In this document: positions 20,584-43,600 of the stretch, piece after piece
Position numbering within the stretch: position 1 is the first letter of the stretch
How the letters are laid out: each line of letters starts with the position of its first letter
Assembly: GCF_036711975.1 (NCBI RefSeq)
Contig: NC_091967.1
Span: 4,960,001-5,024,000 of the forward strand
Reading direction: 5' to 3'
DNA: 64,000 bases
Origin: Onthophagus taurus
Lineage: Eukaryota > Arthropoda > Insecta > Coleoptera > Scarabaeidae
Notes under the pieces: generated by a model
The model's input: the letters and a program-made list of their open reading frames with translations, nothing else
What the model was told of the DNA's origin: nothing
The model's database searches: none
Made by a program: the position numbers and the translations under genes

Positions 20584-23500
20584 TTAATCAGATCCATCAT
20601 TGTTATTTGTAAAATAACAGTCAATTTCTTTAAGAAAAATATCATGTTCTGGCTTTATCGAAACGTTTCCATATATAGCCCTAAACACCTCTCTTATTTG
20701 ATTAACAGGAAAAATATCGATTTTATTACAGCTGCTTGTAATTATGTTATTGGTTAACATATCAGCTTTTAAATCAGAGGGGATTTCATCCAACAAAATA
20801 TTGTCTATATTAATTAAAACGGGAGCAGTCGCGATCGCGCGCCGAACTATTTCAAGAGGAAACGAATTTAAAAGTTCTTTTCGAAATTCTTGAAGTATCA
20901 AATATTTATCATCGCTATCAGTGACGATGTGTAAAGATGCCGATCCAAAATCTAATCAAAAATTAGGTTCTTTAAAAAGCATTTTTTAATTCTTAAATAA
21001 ATACTTACCATGAAAAGTAATTTTTATTTCATTTTCTAATGCTGATTGATACTCATCATTAGTTGCATTTAAAATATTTAAACTCTTAATGGGACTTTCA
21101 ATCATCTTTTCGTCAATTTCATTATTGGATGATTTCGTTATGGTGTTTTGATTTAAATCATCAAAATTAGATTCTGTTGAAATCTTTTCTGGAATCATTT
21201 CTGTCAAATTTTTTTCATTATCATCCTCATCGTTTAAATTTCGTTTATTCACGTTTTGTTGATTCAAATCTTTAAGATTGGATTCCATTGATTTGAAAGA
21301 ATTTGTAATTTGTTCTACACAAGAATTTTCAATCAAATTTTTTTCGTTTTCTTCGACCTTTATGGTTTGGACAACTACATTATTTGAAGCTTCAAGATCT
21401 AAATTTTTAGAAGTTTTATTTTCTTCAACTTCTTTTGGTGTTTTACTTTCATTTGAATCTTTAACTTTCAATTCTGATGAATTAAAAGAATTTACAGCCT
21501 CTTTGCTTTTTTTGTTTTTATTAAGATTTAAATTCTTTTCAGGTGACTGAGGATTTTCACTTCTATCTCTTTCACCTCCTATTTCAGGTATCATATTAAG
21601 ATTTACATTCTTTTCAGGTTCTTTTTCAACCAAATTATCTATTTTATCATATCTAATCTCAGGATTTTCACTTCTATCTCTTTCACCTCCTATTTCAGGT
21701 ATCATATTAAGATTTACATTCTTTTCAGGTTCTTTTTCAACCAAATTATCTATTTTATCATATCTAATCTCAGGATTTTCGCTTCTATCTCTTTCACCTC
21801 CTATTTCAGGTGTTATCTTAATTTCATCATTTTGGTATTCGCACTTTCTTATATTGATATTTTCTTTTGGTCGATTTATAACAGATGGTGGATTTGGTGA
21901 ACAATTATAATTAACAACGTTGTGATACTGTTGATAATTTGGTGGATAAAAGTTAAAATGTTGAGGTTGTTGTGAATTCATATGATCAATAGGGTATGGT
22001 GGATTGTAATAATTTAAAGGTGGCATCATCGTTGGTGGTTGATTTAGATGTGGTGGAATATAATTGTGATAAAAAGGTTGATGCTTCATCATCTTACAAG
22101 CATGCATAGTGGAAAGAAACATTAAATAAGTTAGGTTAGGATCAACACCAAAGCTATTTTGAGGCAAATTGCGAAAACCAGGTGGTGGTCTTAACGAATT
22201 TCTATTTTCCAAAGTACTAATGAAATGTTCAGGAACACTTCCAATTGATGGGGCAATTAATTCATTTTCAATAATTTCTGTATTATTTTCTGAATCATTT
22301 TTAATACTTTCTGAATCCTTTTCAACAATTTCTAAATTATTCCCATTAATAATTTCGTCATCACTTGAATTACTATCTTCAGTTTTAGATTCAACATTCT
22401 CAATCTTCTTAAAATACTTCGGAAATATTCTGTCATAACTAAAATTGCATGCCTGAAGGTGTAACATGGCAGTATAAGTTAAAGTTGTACCCGTTTCGAA
22501 TTCTTCATGCGTCGGATATAAATAAACATTGGGTACAGTTGGTGTGCAATCGTTCGATGATTTTTCGTTGGGTTCCTAGAATTTTAATGAACGAAAAGCT
22601 CCTGATAAAAATAGCCTTTCTATTTTCGTTGAATTTACAAGCATGGTATACAAGTTAAAGTATTAATTAAAAATTTAATCAAATTAAGATTTTAAATTTA
22701 AAAACTTTTTGAGTTTTTTTTCAAGATTTATAATAACGTCGTTTGATACAGGAGCTTTTTGATCGATTTCTGGAGTATTTGAAGGAGTGGAAGACTTACT
22801 GACCTCATTGAAAAATGTTGCTAATTGTTCCTGGATTAAGAGGTCATTTATGAAAAGGTCACGGCCAGGCGTTGATGTATCCACGACAATTAAATCAAGA
22901 ATCATATCCTAAAAAATTAATATTATTAAATAAAAAGAAAAAGAAATGGTTAATTACATTTTCGTCTATGTCGTAAATCTGTGCAACTAAACTTTTGTGG
23001 CGAACTAACTGCAAAAACCTGCTAGACGCTTGTTGAGGCCACAATTCATCCTTAACAGTGGGTTGTATCCCATATAATCTAGCCCTAATCGCTTGTGCGG
23101 GGAAATTAACAAAATCCACAGTCAAATAACAAACAGTTTTAACTCGAACAACAGCAATCGTCCCATAATCAACGTAAAACACTTTTATATCACCATCCAT
23201 TTTCTTTGAGCAATCAACAACTTTAGCACGATGATATTCCCCATCAAAGATGCTCGCGAGGTACATCCCTTCACGTATCGCGTAATATGGAATGTAATAT
23301 TTATCTTTATTAGCGCGATAAAATATCCTAAAAAGCGAAGATATAATAAAAACGTAATTTTTACTAATTTAGTAAATTACTGCATATTATCCATAAGCCG
23401 ATTAAGATTATCTGAATGTTGTCGAAGATGTATCCAAAATTTGCTTGGATCATAAACTTCCGCTACTTCAATATCAATAAAATCTTGCAATGAAACGTCG

Positions 23501-26500
23501 GTTTCAATCCATTGTCGAATTATATTTGCATCATATACAACATCACTTAATAATTGTTTCATGTGGAACTCTAGCAGAACATCCTATAATTGTAAAATAA
23601 GTAAAGGTTGTGAAATTCAGTATTGATTTAAAAATGAAACAATGAAAGCGATCCCTGGGTAAGTGAGAAACCTCTATAACCAAGATCTAATCACCTTTTT
23701 AGTGAAAATCACCTCTTTATCTAGGCTAATTTTAACCTGTATAACTGGGATCATTTTTCCCCATTCTAGCCTCAATAAGTAGGAGTTGTTCCACTTTAAT
23801 ATACAGCTTGCAATACCGGATCAAAATCTTAATACCGGTATTACTATAAAAAAGTTTACTCACTAAATTACAATCACTAGATATATCTAATTGTAAGATT
23901 TTTTTCCCCTCTGCGGCGTCACCTCTACTAACAACAGGTTAATTCCTACTATATCTTTAGATTGGCAATAAAGCATAAGATACAGAATCTGAGAAGATAA
24001 TCAAAAAATGGAAAGATATTAGGAATCTGTACAAAGTACCTATAAACTTAAAGATCTGCATAACATTATTGTTTTGTTGTCTTTCACTTGGTCCAAAGGT
24101 TCAACTTCACTGCCGCGTCAAAAAATGAAATTACACTTCATCATTTAAAGCTCTGTGGAATTCTTTCGAATTCTTGCTTTGGAATTTTCCGGAAAGGTGC
24201 AGATTCAAGAAAGAAACTTTAACATAATGGCTCTTGGTAGTTTGTCAGACTTATCATAATACTGTTATACTTGGTGGGACACTCCACGAATCAAATTGAC
24301 CTGAAACACCATTATGGAGTAAAAACTCCAAAAATAGTTGTATGCAGAGAGTATTTTATTGTTGGCTAGGCATGACAAATTTATTGAACATTAAGTACAT
24401 TAAGTTGTCGTCATCAAGGGTTGAGTCTTTGTTATCTTCAAGATTCTGTCAGAGTGCAAAATGATATTTCTTGTAGTCAAAATGAGGTCACCCATTTCTA
24501 TTACGGAATATGAACGACGACTTTTTTCTGAATCTAGTACAATCAATATTAATATTGGTTACTTAAGAAAATTTTCGAGAAAAATTATCTTAAAGTTTCA
24601 TGATTTTCCATTTACTTGAGATAGCAAAATAGCAGTAGCTATGCGTAACCATGGCAACCAACTGTTTCAAATGTCAAAAATTAATCATTGTCTTAATAAA
24701 ATATCTAAAACAACTGGTTGCCATGGTTACGCATGGCTACTGCTATTTTTCTACCTCAAATGAATGGAAAATCAGGAAACTTTAAGGCAATTTTTCTCGA
24801 AAATTTTCTTATTCAGTTAATATTAATTTTGGCTGTACCAAATTCAGAAAAAAATCCTCTTTCATATTCCGTAATAAAAATGGGGGATTGCTATTTGAAA
24901 AAAATTGGGATGACGTCATAACTAGCTTAAAAATGGCGGAAAAAATTGTAAAAAATTTAAATCCTTAAACAAAAAATAAAGAAGTTATAGGCAAAAAACG
25001 AAAAAGTCATTTTTTTGTTCTTCGGCCATATTTTAAAAACTAAAACGGTTAGATCCAAAAACTTAGTTGAAAAATGATGAGCTCTAAAATATGCAACTTT
25101 GCCTTTATTTAACCATTTCTGTATCTCTTATGGTTTCTGAGATCCAATGGTGGGGGTCGAATTTCAATTACCCTGTATACAAAAGAAGCCCTCATCACTG
25201 AAAACAGGCTGGAAAATCAAGCTGATGCAATCTCAAGGATTGTGAACTTCCAGATCACAGATAAGCGAAGAGTATGATATCTCCATCGCAAAACAAAACC
25301 TAAGAGGTTTTATGCTTCAGCAAAGGGGATTAAAGGACACTCTCTTCCACATTGGACAAGTTGAGGATCAAACTTGTCGACTTTGCAACGTCGAGTCAGA
25401 AACGGCTGAACATATACTGTGTAATTGCGTCGCACCTACCGGCATAAAGGAACAAGACCTTGGAGCAATACTAAGGTTCATTAAGGACCTACATTTGCCC
25501 TAAACTTTTGGAGGGCTAAAGTTACAATAGATCTTATAGGTCGCTACCGACGAATTTTAGTAGACGCAAATAAACTTTTAGGTGAATCGTCCAAAGTACA
25601 CGGAAAACTTAAATGGCTACCAGAGTTTCCAATTTTGGAAGATTGCTTTACAAAATGGATAGAGCAGTGTAACTCACAAAATATATCTATAAATTTAATG
25701 GCAACAGTTTAAAAGAAAAGGTCTTAGATTTTGCAAAAAAATTAAATCTTAAAGGTTTTGTGAGAAGAAGGTTATAAAGAGAGGAATGATTTGACATTCA
25801 AAAAAATCTATGAATAACACGGTTTGTAATGCTTGGATTAACGATTCATCTGAAATTCCAAGGAAATATGAACCGAAAAACATTTTTAATGCCGACGAGA
25901 CTAGATTATGTTTAAAATGTCTTCCTGACAAAACTATTTATTTCAAAAACTACGATTGTCATGATAACAAAAACAGCAAAGAACGAGTAACATTATAGAC
26001 AGGACTGAAAAATACCATTACTTTGGATTAGAAAATCAAAGAAACCAAGATGTTTCCAAAATATTAAGACACTACCAATAAATTACAAAAATAACAAAAA
26101 CTTGTCGATAACTTCCATTATCTTTCGGGATTAGTTATTGGATTTAGACAAGAAAATGAGTCATCAAAACAATGCGAACAATGGATGACTGTTACTGAAA
26201 GATGTGAAGATCAGACTACTGCATGGAATTTCATAATCATGGACAATGGTTTAATTATTTGCGGAAATCAAAATGATGACGACATTTTGGAACTTTATCT
26301 TAATGAAAACTTGGATCAAGATGAACAAGATGTTGAAGAATAAGAAGTACAAAATCTTGTAATAAACATAGAAGACAATTAAAAAAAAACAATTGCATAT
26401 AACCAATTATTTTCTCTAATTAATAAAATGTTTGTTTTAGTTTAAATGAAATTGATTGTTTCATTTCTTTTTGATTCCAGAAAAAAACCTCTGTATATAG

Positions 26501-28165
26501 GATTAAGATTTTCATAACAGGGACACCTCTATAAGTGAGATTTTAAAGTTGTTCTCAAGAGATCCCACTTATCCAGGTTCGACTGTATATGGAACGATTT
26601 CGTTTTAAATCGCCAAGGTAGCTTGAGAAAAATCATCAAGTTTGGAGGACTCGCCCACAAGTGACCTTGGCAATTTGAGAAAGATACTGGATTTGATATA
26701 TAAACACAATTATTACCATTAGAAAATTCCTATACCATTTCAGAAGAAATTTAGCATTGTAATTATGACCTTAAACTAAATTAAATTAATTTGACCACTC
26801 CCATTTTTCAATTTTTAAATCAATACTAATTAATACTTATAAATATACATCATGTTTTTAAATACAATGATATCTCAGATAATTTTGAAAATGGTTAAAT
26901 AAAACTACCTTTAATATTCATCAATATATGATGAATTTAAACATTTTAATCCATTTTCAAAATGTTTAATATCTGGGACACACCATATAGAAGTAATTAT
27001 TACCTCAATACCATCAGGTAATGGTGGATCTTTATTTTGATGTGTCTTCTCCCAATTAATATCGTCAAATTGTTTTTCTTCAATGTCTTTTTCATCCTTT
27101 TCAGGTCCATGTTCAAGTTTTAAATTTAATTCTTTATCATAAATTTGAAAACTTCCATCTTTTAAATGTTTAAAAGCAAAAATTGTTTTAAAATCTAAAC
27201 AAAAATGTGTAATCGATTTGTAGCCATAATCGCTATAATTTAAGTTGTGCTTAAATTTTTTTTTATATAGCTCAATTAATTTACTACTATGTAAACCTTC
27301 GGGATGATTACTAATTAATTCTTTTAATCGATTCTGAATGTAATATGGTACATTATTCTTTAACACTGTAGAGTTATTTTTGTTGTTGTAACTTTTTGGT
27401 ATTACACCTCTAGATGTTAAAGAAATTGGGTTAACTGCATTGGAAATTTTTTCTCCAACCATTGAAGGATTTTGATTATTTTGAGATGTTGATGGAACAT
27501 TTTCAAATATTTTGTGAGGTTGCCGTAGACTTTGATTTAACAAACTAGGAATATGTTGTACATTTGATGTGATATTATTTTGTAGTGTTGATGAGACATT
27601 TGGAATATTATTATCTGGGGTTTTTCTTAAATGAAATTCTTCCGAACGTCTCCTTTGAACAAATGGAACTGATTTTTGAATTTGTGGACTTTGATAAGTA
27701 AAAATGGGCTGATGATTACTAAAATTAACCCTAGGATTTTGAATTGATAATCTTGGCTTTCTTTTTGGAGGTCTTTGTTTACGAATTAAACTGTCTATGT
27801 GCGCAGATTTTTGACTTATCATTAAGCAAAGCTCTGCATCATAACCTCTACCATTAACCTAAAAATAACAATCCATTAAATACAAAGTTGTAAACACCAT
27901 AACAAAAATACTTACTGTTAAACAATGTGGTATTGAGTGCAAATACGACTCAAGACTGCAATATCCTAATTCACTAAACGGGATTCGATATCCATTTAAC
28001 TCCTTAAATTGTCGGTCTAAATCTCTGATGGTCATCCGAAGTGGATTTGAGGTTAGAACGCTTGATATAAGTGCCTCTGTCTCTGCAGCTTTACTTTTAA
28101 TGTCATCCTACAAAATATGTTTTATTATATTCTTTAATGATACACTAATATTTTTATCATACCAT
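20584..28165 (-). CDS. tej: Tejas/TDRD5 homologue: LOTUS-LOTUS-Tudor germline protein
   Basis: Germ-granule protein of the piRNA pathway; LOTUS domains bind Vasa-type helicases and RNA, Tudor domains read methyl-arginine. Exons, 5' to 3': 28163-28165 (ATG only), 27916-28107, 27004-27858, 23381-23583, 22958-23327, 22804-22908, 21009-22575, 20584-20951. Phases agree throughout and give 1,220 residues. LOTUS 1 is at about 8-88 (TIRDLDRQFKELNGYRIPFS, LGYCSLESYLHSIP), LOTUS 2 at about 235-305 (RLKELISNHPEGLHSSKLIE). The Tudor domain is at about 382-500 (DPSKFWIHLR, YRAKVV-type EYHRAKVV, VFYVDYGT). The tail is charged and has three near-perfect 37-residue repeats. The donor of exon 6 (GTCAGT) is the weakest call: read-through there stops at 22684 and would give a shorter Tejas-sized protein. 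Intron 4 is 3.4 kb and full of transposons. Confidence 0.85.
21550..21830 (-). repeat. In-frame 111-bp coding tandem repeat in the tejas tail
   Basis: Two complete 37-codon units and part of a third, nearly identical at the DNA level (starts 21550, 21661, 21772). Each encodes PEIGGERDRSENPEIRYDKI followed by a Glu/Lys-rich stretch. The near identity points to recent duplication, so copy number may vary between individuals. Confidence 0.85.
24480..25165. mobile_element. Fold-back element with about 190-bp opposed arms
   Basis: 'TAGCTATGCGTAACCATGGC' at about 24636 pairs with 'GCCATGGTTACGCATGGCTA' at about 24719, and the pairing continues outward ('TTTCTCGAAAATTTTCTTA' on one side, 'AAGAAAATTTTCGAGAAA' on the other; 'TTACGGAATATGAA' against 'TTCATATTCCGTAA'). 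The outer end reads AATTACCCTGTATA. A split copy is at 1270-2880. Non-coding. Confidence 0.65.
25200..25510 (+). mobile_element. LINE C-terminal fragment with zinc knuckle
   Basis: The plus-strand frame 25312-25503 reads LKDTLFHIGQVEDQTCRLCN, then ETAEHILCNC. This is the CxxC...H..C motif at the C-terminus of LINE polyproteins of the R1/LOA/Jockey type. The rest of the element is absent. Confidence 0.6.
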
Positions 28166-33683: not shown

Positions 33684-33755
33684 AAAAATCTTATTACAAT
33701 TTGTGATATTTTAATATTTACATTAACTACAGTGTTTATAAATTAATACTAAACG

Positions 33756-34039
33756 CTATCTTCCTGGTATTTCGTCATATTGTACTTTTTTAGCTTCTTT
33801 GGTAAAATCAATTTGTTGTTGTAATAAATAGAGATTTTCCGTTTTTCGTCTTTGTTGTCTTTCAATATCTTTTATTACGCCCACATGAAGTCTTTCTCTA
33901 ATAAATTAATAATAAATAACCAAAATATTTTAATAAATAACACCTACCTGTCAAATTGTTGCTTATAGTGGACATAACCTATAATCCCTACGGAAATTAA
34001 ACAAGCTGTACCTAATGTAAATTTTGATGTCAACGACAT
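33756..34039 (-). CDS. PET117: Cytochrome c oxidase assembly protein PET117
   Basis: Mitochondrial inner-membrane factor needed for complex IV assembly, acting with heme A synthase (COX15). Exons 33948-34039 and 33756-33897 give 77 residues. The N-terminus has one hydrophobic segment (LTSKFTLGTACLISVGIIGY) ending in VHYKQQFDRERLHVGVIKD, and the helix IERQQRRKTENLYLLQQQID follows; both are hallmarks of PET117. Intron 49 nt, phase 2. It is tail to tail with the ZP gene, 72 bp apart. Confidence 0.93.
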
Positions 34040-34104
34040 TTCGTGGTTTAATTAAGTTATTTTTATATTAATTAAACTTATTTAATTCGGCATATACAAA
34101 TAAC

Positions 34105-34806
34105 TTGTTAAATTTATTAAAATTTAAGATATCTTATATTTGACAATTATTTGACAATTGACAGTTCAAACAAATAAACTGTTTTATTTTAAAATTATTT
34201 TAATTTGTTATTTTTATAGCGTTATATTTACATAAATAATCATAAATAAAATATTAGGATATATTTTAACAATAAATTAGGTTTACATAAAGTGTTACTA
34301 TTAAACATTGAGAAATGAAATACCCTAGCATTACTTTCATCAATTTATTAAAATGTTTATTTGATATTTGCTGAATGTGGGTGAGAAATAAGCTAAAATA
34401 ACCTTGATATGCAACAATAAAACCAGAAATGGTAAAGAATCATATAATGATATTGTTAAATTTATTAAAATTTAAGATATCTTATATTTGACAACTATTT
34501 GACAATTGACAGTTCAAACAAATAAACTGTTTTATTTTTAACTTATTTTAATTTTTTATTTTTATAGCGTTATATTTACATAAATAATCCTAAATAAAAT
34601 ATTACGATATATTTTAATAATAAATTAGTTTTAAATAAATTGTTACTATTAAACATTGAGAAATAAAATACCCTAGCATTACTTTCATCAGCATAGTTTA
34701 TTAAAATGTTTATTTGATATTTTGTTGAATGTGGGTGAAAAATAAGATAAAATAACTTTGATATGCAACAATAAAACCATAAATGATAAAGAATCATATA
34801 ATGATA
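34105..34806. repeat. 348-bp tandem duplication upstream of PET117
   Basis: 34105-34452 and 34453-34806 are about 93-95% alike over their length, from 'TTGTTAAATTTATT' to 'GAATCATATAATGATATT'. No coding frame. The first copy begins 66 bp upstream of the PET117 start codon and the second ends 33 bp before the start codon of the DHHC-like gene, so the duplication fills the whole space between two divergent genes. Confidence 0.8.
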
Positions 34807-34838
34807 TTGGAATAAATCATAAATGAGGTTGTAATTCA

Positions 34839-35940
34839 ATGAGTCCGGAAAGTAATAACTACTTATGTTGTTGTGAATATATCGATCAAAATAACCAGAT
34901 TAATCACATCCTGGCATGTTGCTGTGATTGTCAAGATTTTGATGAAGGAATGGAAAGGTGAAACTTCTTTTTAACTCAATTATTCACTTATTTGTTGTAA
35001 TTTTTTGTAGTCTTATAACCGGTCATGGCTTTCCTCAGCACAACAAACAAAACTGCTTTTCCGCCTGTACTGATCGCCTAAGACTACCTTGGATAGGAGG
35101 AGCAAAGCGAATATCACCGGAAATAATCTTATCTATAATTTTTATACCACTTTTTTTATTAATAGCAACAAATGGAATAGTATGGACCATTCTTGCAGCC
35201 ATCGCCTTAGTCCTGTTATTAATATGCATGAAACTTTTTACTCAAAACTGTTGTACCAACTTTTTTCAAGTTTGGATCAACACTTCTTTTATCATACTTT
35301 ATTTAGTGTTTGAGTTAGTTGTGATACCATTCCTTGAAATACTTTTAGAAGAGAATATAGCATTGACTATTGTCATTTTGCTTGGTTGTTATTGGTTTTG
35401 GAAGGCGAAAAAATGCTGTGTTATAGATAATTCTGGTTGGCATTGTGTTGGGTGCCAAAAAATGGTTCCTATTAATAGCACCCATAGTTTGTGGTAAAAA
35501 AAATAAATTAAAAACATATTTATTAATCTAATACACTTTTAATTTAAAGGTTGGGTTATTGTATAGGTGATTATAACATAAAATATTACATAATGGGTTT
35601 ATTTGCAATGGTTTCTTCTCTTTTATATGGATGTAATCTTACTTTAACTACGGTGTGCCATCCATTTTTATTTTATGGGTCGGTTTTACTACCTGATGAT
35701 TGTTCGTATGCTTATGATTTATTTGAGTGAGTTCAAAAACATTTGTGTAGATTAAATTTTACACTATCACTTATCTTTTTTTTGTATAGGCTTGCTTTAT
35801 CATTTGTATCGGGGTTGTATGGACTTGGATTAGCAACATTTTTTTCTATAATGTTACTGCATCAAATGGTGGAAGTTATGGTGGATAATGTTTGTAAAAG
35901 GAGACGGTTTCGAAAGACTGCAGCAAATACCCTGGCATAA
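34839..35940 (+). CDS. ZDHHC23-like palmitoyltransferase homologue with STHS in place of DHHC
   Basis: Exons 34839-34957, 35011-35493, 35550-35726, 35790-35940; phases agree; 309 residues. The N-terminus (NYLCCCEYIDQNNQINH, ACCCDCQDFDEGMER) and RLRLPWIGGAKRIS are distinctive of the ZDHHC23 group. Four hydrophobic segments precede the Cys-rich domain and two follow it, as expected. The domain itself is reduced: WHCVGCQKMVPINSTHSLW followed by LGYCIGDYN and YY. Family members have PRDHHCxW here, so the acyl-accepting Cys is Ser and the DHHC reads STHS; the upstream CxxC pair is also lost. Splice sites and frame are intact, so this looks like an expressed pseudoenzyme rather than a dead gene. 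Known ZDHHC23 palmitoylates membrane channels and binds nNOS; this protein probably cannot transfer acyl groups. Confidence 0.85.
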
Positions 35941-37329: not shown

Positions 37330-37964
37330 GTTTTCCAACGCTTAAAACGCATGTGGGCGGAAGTTGAGGGTGTAGTGGGGGTGAATACCTCGAACAAAAC
37401 TCCGTTAAAAGCTCAAAGCTCGCACTTGCAGCCTTGTCGTTGCCTAAACATCACCGCAGATCGCACAGATCTGATCAGGTAAAACTTAATTAATTATCTC
37501 TTTGTGTTTTAATTTTTTTCTGTTGAATTTTTAGCATGTTAACTTGTTGGTTATTGATAGTTTTGCTATCAATTTCTAACGCTGTATTACCATCGAGTGT
37601 TTCTTCTAAAGATGCTTGGCAAAGACCTGGTTGTCATAAAGTAGGTTAGTTAAAAAAATTTTTTTTTTAGTTAAATATTTCTTTTATTAATTATTTTTTT
37701 TTAGGTCATACGAGAAAAATTCGAATCCCTGGTTGTGTTGAATTCGAAATGATTACCAATGCTTGTCGTGGTTATTGTGAAAGTTGGGCGATTCCTTCAG
37801 GACCTAAAGCAAGTCCAACCCAACCCATTACTTCCGTCGGGCAGTGTTGTAACATTATGGAATCGGAACCTTTGGAAGCAGTTGTTAGATGTCTCGATGG
37901 ATACAAGAAGTTAACTTTTAAATCGGCTGCTAGTTGCTCTTGTTACCATTGCAAAAAAGATTAA
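37330..37964 (+). CDS. GPA2: Glycoprotein hormone alpha 2 (thyrostimulin alpha)
   Basis: Secreted cystine-knot hormone subunit that pairs with GPB5 and acts on an LGR1-type receptor; linked to water balance in insects. A non-coding first exon (about 37330-37478, donor GTAAAA) precedes coding exons 37536-37644 and 37705-37964; the start is the ATG at 37536 and the product is 122 residues. Signal peptide MLTCWLLIVLLSISNAV. The hallmarks are CHKVGHTRKIRIPGC, TNACRGYCESWAIPS, VGQCCNIME and the C-terminal SCSCYHCKKD, giving the ten Cys of the knot. The gene is tail to tail with GPB5. AATAAA near 37994. Confidence 0.96.
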
Positions 37965-40639: not shown

Positions 40640-43600
40640 TTATTGGCGAATCCCAAATCCTAAACGATCCGGATGAGATCGATTCGCTCGATATCTAACT
40701 CCCTCACAACTTGTGTCAGATGAAGAACACAGTTGACACCGACAGCTCGCAGCTTCTAAATACTCGTATCTTGCCGTTGATGGTAAAGCATCTTCATCGC
40801 AATCTCTTAAAAACGCAACCGATTTAGTTCTTGCGTAGTGCACACAAACTGGATGTGATGATTTTTTAAAAGGAAAACGATAATCTGAAATCTAAAAGAA
40901 ATGTTTTTAACCTTTCAACACTAGTCTAAAGAGTTAGGTTTAGAGAGAATTACCTCTAAATTTAGAACTAGAAACATTCGGGTTTAAACCCAAATGTTTC
41001 TAGTTCTAGGTCTAGTATTAGTTCTAGTGCAAGTATTAATTCTAGTTTTAATGCTATTGTTAGATCTAGTTTTAGTTGTTTCGCAAATATCTGACTTTCC
41101 AGGAAGGTTAAATCTAATAATTATTAATCAAAAAATTGTTTTAAATCCTTGTAAAAACAATGAATATTAAATAAGAAAGTTGGGAGTCTTCGACTTTTTT
41201 TCCTTTCGCGGTTATAATCTAAAGTTGTGGAGGATGAGGTTTGCATAAATGAGAAAACAATTTGATGCACCGTTACCTGGAGACGTGTCCTCTTTCCGGA
41301 AAAGTTTTATTTTCGTGGAAAATTGGGACATAAATTAAAAATTGTATTTTAGAAAATTGCCGTTAATTGCAATTTTAAAAAAATCTGTTTACAACGCGAA
41401 AACAAACAGTAATGAAACGAAATCAAAACAGACCGAAAGCGGAACGGTGCTTTTATAATTAAATAAGAAAAAAAATTTAATTTGTGGTTTTAAAATTGTC
41501 TCTGGAGGGAATTACCTTTTATCGTTTATTTGTCTTTTTACCATATTACGAGCTAAAGCTTATTCACTGTTTGAACTTTGCGGAAGATAATTTTAATTAA
41601 TTCTTTCCGATTTATGAAAGCTAACTGAAATAATTTAATTTTAAAAAAAATTTTCTACATTAAACAGTTCTCTATAGAACACTTTTTAGAATCCTCTCCT
41701 TTTTCCACGTTCGCCTAATTAATTAGTTAAAGTAATTATCTACTCATCTAATTCAAACTTATCTTTCCCTTAAATCCACCCCCCCTATTTAACACTTTAT
41801 TCATTTCATTCAATTTTGCGTTTTGACCCGATTCCCGAAGAAAGCTTTCGTCCCGGATTAAAATGGAAACTTTACACATCTAAACCCGCACAAGATCGCT
41901 TTTACAATTATCGCAAAACCTGTATTAAACCTCCACAAAACTCTACGAGATCGATTAAAATCCGCATTAAGTCTGTACCTATCCTGTATCCTTCTATCTT
42001 TGAGGTATTTACTTTTAATTTATACTTGTCGATTAATTAAGAAAGGAATTTTGAATGTTAAGAAAAAAATTTTAAATGAATTTTCTTACATTAAATACTA
42101 ATTAAGTTTGTAATAAAATCCTTAAAGATTAATATCTTTGTGTGTGACATCTATGATTGCGGTTGAAATCAAAAAATCGTAGGCTTCAAATTTGAATTTG
42201 TGAAGATATGATCTTTCTCTTCAATTTGCTATTGAATGCTTTTTATCACATATTGATATACCAATTAGTTCATGAGATATGATTTATTAAAAATTGACAT
42301 CTCACAATACAACATCTACAATTGTGGTTAAATTAAAAAAATCATATGTCCGAAATTTGAAGTTTCGAAGAAATGATTTTTGTTACATAAAATAGCAATT
42401 AAATTTGCTATAAAATCCTTATTATCTCACGTCGATATCTCAATTAGTTCCTGAGATATAATTTGTTAAAGATTAATATCTTTGTGTGTGACATCTATGA
42501 TTGCGTTTGAAATCAAAAAATCGTAAGTTTGAAATTTGAATTTGTGAAGATATGGTGTTGAGCACATTAATTGCAAATTAAATTTGCTATTGAATGCTTT
42601 TTATCACATGCTGATATCTCAATTAGTTTCTGAGATATGATGCATTAAAGATTGACATCTCTCAATACAACATCTACGATTGTGATCACATTAATAAAAT
42701 CAAATCTCCGAAATTTGATGTTTTGAAGAAATGATTTTTGTTACATAAAATAGCAATTAAATTTGCTATAAAATCCTTATTATCTCACGTCGATATCTCA
42801 ATTAGTTCCTGAGATATAATTTATTAAAGATTAATATCTTTGTGTGTGACATCTATGATTGCGTTTGAAATCAAAAAATCGTAGGTTTGAAATTTGAATT
42901 TGTGAAGATATGGTCTTGGGCACACTAATTGCAAATTAAATTTGCTATTGAATGCTTTTTATCACATGCTGATATCCCAATTAGTTCCTGAGATTTGATT
43001 CATTAAAAATTGACATCTCTCAACACAACATCTACGATTGTGGTTAAATTAAAAAAATCATATCTCCGAAATTTGAAGTTTTGAAGAAATGATTTTTGTT
43101 ACATAAAATAGCAATTAAATTTGCTATAAAATCCTTATTATGTCATGTCGATATCTCAATTAGTTCCTGAGATATAATTTATTAAAGATTAACATCTTTG
43201 TGTGTGACATCTATGATTGCGTTTGAAATTAAAAAATCGTAAGTTTGAAATTTGAATTTGTGAAAATATGGTTTTGAGCACATTAATTGCAAATTAAATT
43301 TGCTATTGAACGCTTTTTATCACATGCTGATATCTCAATTAGTTCCTGAGATATGATTCATTAAAAATTGACATCTTTTAATACAACATCTACGATTGTG
43401 ATTAAATTAAAAAAATCATATCTTCGAAATTTGAAGTTTTGAAGAAATGACTTTTGTTACATAAAATAGCAATTAAATTTGCTATAAAATCCTTATTATC
43501 TTACGCAGATATCTCAATTAGTTCCTGAGATATAATTTATTAAAGATTAATATCTTTGTGTGTGACATCTATGATTGCGTTTGAAATAAAAAAATCGTAG

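Follow-up and report, generated by a model that had tools for sequence, protein, structure and literature searches.

The zDHHC proteins are described in PMC10622425 as sharing little sequence outside the cysteine-rich domain, and in DHHC20, according to the same source, His154, polarised by Asp153, takes the proton from Cys156, and His155 is a zinc ligand. The His and the Cys of the HC pair bind different zinc ions (PMC8227752). The mammalian members predicted to cross the membrane six times are given as zDHHC13, 17 and 23 only, with ankyrin repeats borne by the first two (PMC8059564). Little was found in the literature on inactive members of the family beyond Drosophila GABPI (CG17257), in which the Cys of the DHHC motif is replaced by Ser and activity is considered unlikely (PMC4192757). 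GABPI is reported to be a six-pass protein without palmitoyltransferase activity, which is needed by the glycolipid-making beta-1,4-N-acetylgalactosaminyltransferase B for activity and in which luminal loops of 12 and 35 amino acids are both required; it is said there to have no mammalian homologs (PMC6258472). It is further described as non-enzymatic, without ankyrin repeats and with a broad range of interactors, and has been counted as palmitoylated in S2R+ cells (PMC9374236). No paper joining ZDHHC23 with GABPI/CG17257 was found in the literature search.

The DNA analysed here (the window) is a stretch of 64,000 nucleotides from the scarab beetle Onthophagus taurus (NC_091967.1, positions 4,960,001 to 5,024,000), in which four exons at 34839-35940 can be spliced to an uninterrupted frame of 309 codons and a stop. 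The features of this gene, numbered from the first letter of the window, are as follows:

34839 to 34957, plus strand: exon 1, with the start codon and the Cys-rich N-terminal motif LCCCEYID...NH...CCCDCQDFDEG
34958 to 35010, plus strand: intron 1 (53 bp, GT-AG, phase 2)
35011 to 35493, plus strand: exon 2, with the DRLRLPW...GAK motif, hydrophobic segments 1-4 and the first part of the cysteine-rich domain
35438 to 35455, plus strand: WHCVGC, the retained HCxxC of the cysteine-rich domain
35477 to 35488, plus strand: STHS at the DHHC position (residues 196-199)
35494 to 35549, plus strand: intron 2 (56 bp, GT-AG, phase 2)
35550 to 35726, plus strand: exon 3, with the retained Cys205, Gly207 and Asn210, hydrophobic segment 5 and a presumed luminal loop
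35727 to 35789, plus strand: intron 3 (63 bp, GT-AG, phase 2)
35790 to 35940, plus strand: exon 4, with hydrophobic segment 6, a short basic C-terminus and the stop codon
36056 to 36061, plus strand: AATAAA, a possible polyadenylation signal read from the sequence

All three introns have GT...AG ends and the exons join in frame, with the common phase 2 derived from the exon lengths, in agreement with the intact splice phases claimed in an earlier note on this DNA. Signs of a pseudogene, in the form of a broken frame or broken splice sites, are absent from the spliced gene. Six hydrophobic segments had likewise been proposed; five of these exceed the threshold of the hydropathy scan, with the same count obtained on each of two scales, while the sixth (about residues 155-171) is placed only on visual inspection and on its alignment with human TM4.

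With 36.8 bits, the spliced protein passes the curated cut-off of the Pfam DHHC profile (PF01529; 28.7 bits). Human ZDHHC23, for which an assumed sequence of this single species was used, gives a local score of 282, against a maximum of 59 among 300 shuffles. BlastP comparison with the assumed sequence, run without composition adjustment or masking, gives two stretches, one of 94.0 bits in the N-terminal half (55/168 residues identical) and one of 57.4 bits in the half with the domain (35/128 identical). Overall 96/305 residues are identical to the assumed human sequence, including 20/30 in the N-terminal Cys motif (residues 9-38), 9/12 in DRLRxPW..GAK and 13/41 in the cysteine-rich domain. 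The two best-conserved parts, the Cys-rich N-terminal motif and DRLRxPW..GAK, lie at 34839-35107. Compared with the usual DHHC pattern, the order of conservation is inverted, with the N-terminal motifs above the cysteine-rich domain. When the genome was searched with the same assumed sequence, the N-terminus of human ZDHHC23 matched this locus alone (62% over 34 amino acids, residues 21-54; E 9.1e-8), which bears out the earlier recognition of family-specific N-terminal motifs. Residues 69-162 of the human protein also match this locus (29%; E 0.0012), its domain matches other DHHC genes (31-63% identity) and not this one at E<=10, and its residues 79-132 have a weak hit (E 2.64) on another contig. 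The two proteins share the N-terminal Cys motif, DRLRxPW..GAK and the order of the hydrophobic segments, and differ in that human ZDHHC23, which is a palmitoyltransferase, has a canonical DHHC cysteine-rich domain, a long linker ahead of it and a longer C-terminus. Six membrane passes without ankyrin repeats point to the ZDHHC23 type, since zDHHC13 and 17 have ankyrins according to PMC8059564.

The decapeptide VPINSTHSLW is present in the spliced protein, and its STHS, which the earlier note had placed where DHHC is expected, does fall there in gap-free alignments to both DHHC20 and the assumed human ZDHHC23 sequence. DHHC20 chains are the only ones listed in the comparison with solved structures (four distinct sequences at E<=10, best E 0.00078; PDB 7khm, 6bmm, 6bml and 6bmn), and they match residues 172-279 of the window protein. 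The aligned 7khm chain has Ser for the catalytic Cys and the 6bmm and 6bml chains have Cys; DHHC20 is a canonical enzyme, unlike the window protein. Because the stretch from WHC to Asn aligns without gaps to the DHHC20 core, STHS is assigned to the DHHC position. A deletion of the motif, which was the first reading by eye, was dropped on account of this alignment and the corresponding one with human ZDHHC23.

Nine canonical cores were used to define the expected residues, eight from the same genome and one from the assumed human ZDHHC23 sequence. The eight are the places with an unbroken core among 24 matches to the DHHC profile; the other 16 comprise the window gene itself, some places with a core cut by an intron, and the rest, which lack a pattern match. 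Eleven columns are invariant in these nine cores. Seven of them are unchanged in the window protein (H, C, C, the motif's second His, C, G and N), and four are lost, namely the third Cys of the core and the motif's Asp, first His and Cys. In STHS the catalytic Asp, His and Cys are thus replaced by S, T and S and the zinc-binding His is retained, leaving none of the catalytic Cys, Asp and first His required by an active DHHC palmitoyltransferase. The loss of residues is selective, hitting the catalytic positions. The upstream Cys pair, which had also been described as gone, is indeed missing as a CxxC, but a CC dipeptide stands close to that place, so that one upstream Cys may survive. The remaining zinc ligands and their division between the two sites are partly presumed; on this assignment all four ligands of the second site are retained, and the first CCHC site is without at least two of its ligands. 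The chance that all four second-site ligands would be retained, computed post hoc, is 0.024 with 5/10 scored positions kept, or 0.045 when one upstream Cys is counted (6/11 kept). Neither a DPG nor a TTxE motif was seen in the window protein, which is a weak test because the assumed human ZDHHC23 sequence itself has NPG and VTER there.

By description, GABPI of Drosophila comes closest among known proteins. The likeness is drawn from published accounts rather than from sequence, and includes membership of the DHHC family, Ser in place of the catalytic Cys, six membrane passes (presumed for the window protein) and the absence of ankyrins. The two would differ in that STHS also replaces the Asp and first His; GABPI is labelled DHHS in a legend (PMC9374236). 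Hydropathy gives the window protein one short loop and one of ~27 amino acids, the latter between segments 5 and 6, compared to 35 amino acids for the longest luminal loop described for GABPI, a point that weighs against the likeness. On the simplest account the window gene would be an insect GABPI, with the two genes as putative orthologues. The published statement on mammalian homologs (PMC6258472) conflicts with a link to ZDHHC23, unless that statement was too narrow.

A genome search with the window protein returned the four exons of the gene itself and a weak match (E 2.22) within another DHHC gene, and the DHHC profile finds its 24 places at E<=10, 13 of them above the cut-off. No second copy or close paralogue was found among the best candidates scored, and none of the genome DHHC frames read is a canonical ZDHHC23 with DHHC. 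A pattern search for orthologues covered prokaryotic and viral contigs (48 and 56 matches, respectively, none confirmed) and is uninformative on insects. A search for telomere repeats, as a sign of beetle origin, was likewise uninformative: six units of TCAGG had no match, and six units of TTAGG had two overlapping matches at a single place, against ten for the reversed control. The view of the locus as a maintained pseudoenzyme of the ZDHHC23 type, put forward in the earlier note, is supported within the limits of a single genome, because the frame is intact, the composition is that of coding DNA, the catalytic loss is selective and no second copy was found.

The protein is probably a DHHC protein of the ZDHHC23 lineage that has stopped transferring acyl groups and whose gene has been retained for a role other than catalysis, in all likelihood that of a pilot of the GABPI type. 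The presumed six-pass membrane protein may then associate with a beta-1,4-N-acetylgalactosaminyltransferase, helping this putative client to reach the Golgi and supporting its activity on glycolipids. A GABPI-like pilot is preferred over a decoy for DHHC enzymes since the closest known protein, GABPI, is a glycosyltransferase helper. The galactosyltransferase profile matches 12 places in the genome, which by score belong to several families, and at least three genes of the beta-1,4-galactosyltransferase family are present, one GalT7 and two nearer to B4GALT1. Among the three best places, the one closest to GalT7 scores 348.9 bits and those closest to B4GALT1 score 226.1 and 104.0 bits, the last being one exon. 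The two B4GALT1-like genes are candidate clients, which may be of type A or B.

The earlier note had suggested that the protein may serve true DHHC enzymes, or the targets of these, as chaperone, scaffold or decoy. An explanation of this kind, in which a ZDHHC23-derived pseudoenzyme was inactivated independently of GABPI, is considered unlikely. It would account for the intact frame, the match to the DHHC profile and the replaced catalytic residues; transferase-independent roles are reported for several zDHHCs (PMC11167447), and GABPI itself has many interactors and is suggested to be a substrate presenter (PMC9374236). The only published inactive DHHC protein found with such a topology nevertheless serves a glycosyltransferase (PMC6258472), and the role of scaffold or decoy is accordingly judged less likely than that of a Golgi glycosyltransferase pilot, the role published for GABPI. 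Early decay of the gene, with catalysis recently lost and the remainder still unbroken, is distinctly improbable: several normally invariant positions are changed and yet there are no stops or frameshifts. The G+C content at the three codon positions (39, 35.5 and 28.7%) also exceeds the 20.9% of the introns and flanks, which are largely noncoding although a short PET117-like gene is included. This background composition was used in a simulation of neutral drift, which started from the present sequence, tracked nine domain positions and stopped once four had changed, the number observed; the tracking did not include the first Cys pair because it aligns with a gap. With indels uncounted, only 0.5% of 2000 runs reached this point free of stops, and the median number of stops was 10. 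This outcome speaks against decay of the whole gene, although so simple a model is no substitute for dN/dS.

It is very unlikely that the protein has diverged and yet remains an active acyltransferase, whether by using another nucleophile or by taking DHHC from another exon. Yeast Akr1 is a transferase despite missing six zinc ligands (PMC8227752) and zDHHC13 functions with DQHC (PMC8059564), but both retain the catalytic Cys, whereas the window protein has lost it together with the Asp and first His. An alternative exon bearing DHHC, which the earlier note had named as evidence that would speak against its reading, was rejected: the introns are just 53-63 bp long, and a DHHC-type motif with Cys is absent from the six-frame motif scan of the window, where only DHHL and DHHT occur by chance (minus strand, 22190 and 4832, respectively), without DHHC context. 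An artefact of the assembly is scarcely credible; only a single assembly is available, but the many separate in-frame changes, with flanks and splice sites intact, are unlike a few base errors.

The reading of the protein as a GABPI-type pilot may be extended, if only speculatively, to the proposal that GABPI is the insect ZDHHC23, and that its Cys-rich N-terminus and six-pass frame already served in non-catalytic piloting before catalysis was lost. Were piloting older than that loss, vertebrate ZDHHC23, with its DHHC, may pilot a Golgi enzyme too. We consider this extension doubtful, and it runs counter to the statement in PMC6258472 that mammals have no homologs of GABPI. If true, the preferred reading would provide a second case of an inactive DHHC protein, one that has lost its catalytic residues and retains a single presumed zinc site, and would mean that the DHHC family can be converted into a membrane helper protein, with the conserved Cys-rich N-terminus indicated as a part that works without catalysis. 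It would also link GABPI to ZDHHC23, which would be the more interesting part if a tree confirmed it.

The neighbours of Drosophila GABPI, as given in PMC4321029, were not recognised among the named genes of the window in a non-systematic comparison, which weighs against the GABPI reading. A PET117-like gene (about 33755-34039, minus strand; Pfam 92.3 bits) lies upstream of the gene at 34839-35940 and is divergent to it. Between the two, a tandem duplication of ~355 bp at 34105-34809 ends 30 bp ahead of the start codon; its copies share 93.3% identity over 357 aligned columns, with 18 mismatches and two gap openings, and a DNA search with 34100-34838 listed no further place in the genome. Two cystine-knot matches, each barely above the cut-off, occur near each other at 37536-37964 (plus strand) and 40643-40891 (minus strand), and are presumed to represent thyrostimulin GPA2 and GPB5. 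Tudor and LOTUS domain matches are found at 22898-27858 on the minus strand, and may belong to a single TDRD5/7-like gene.
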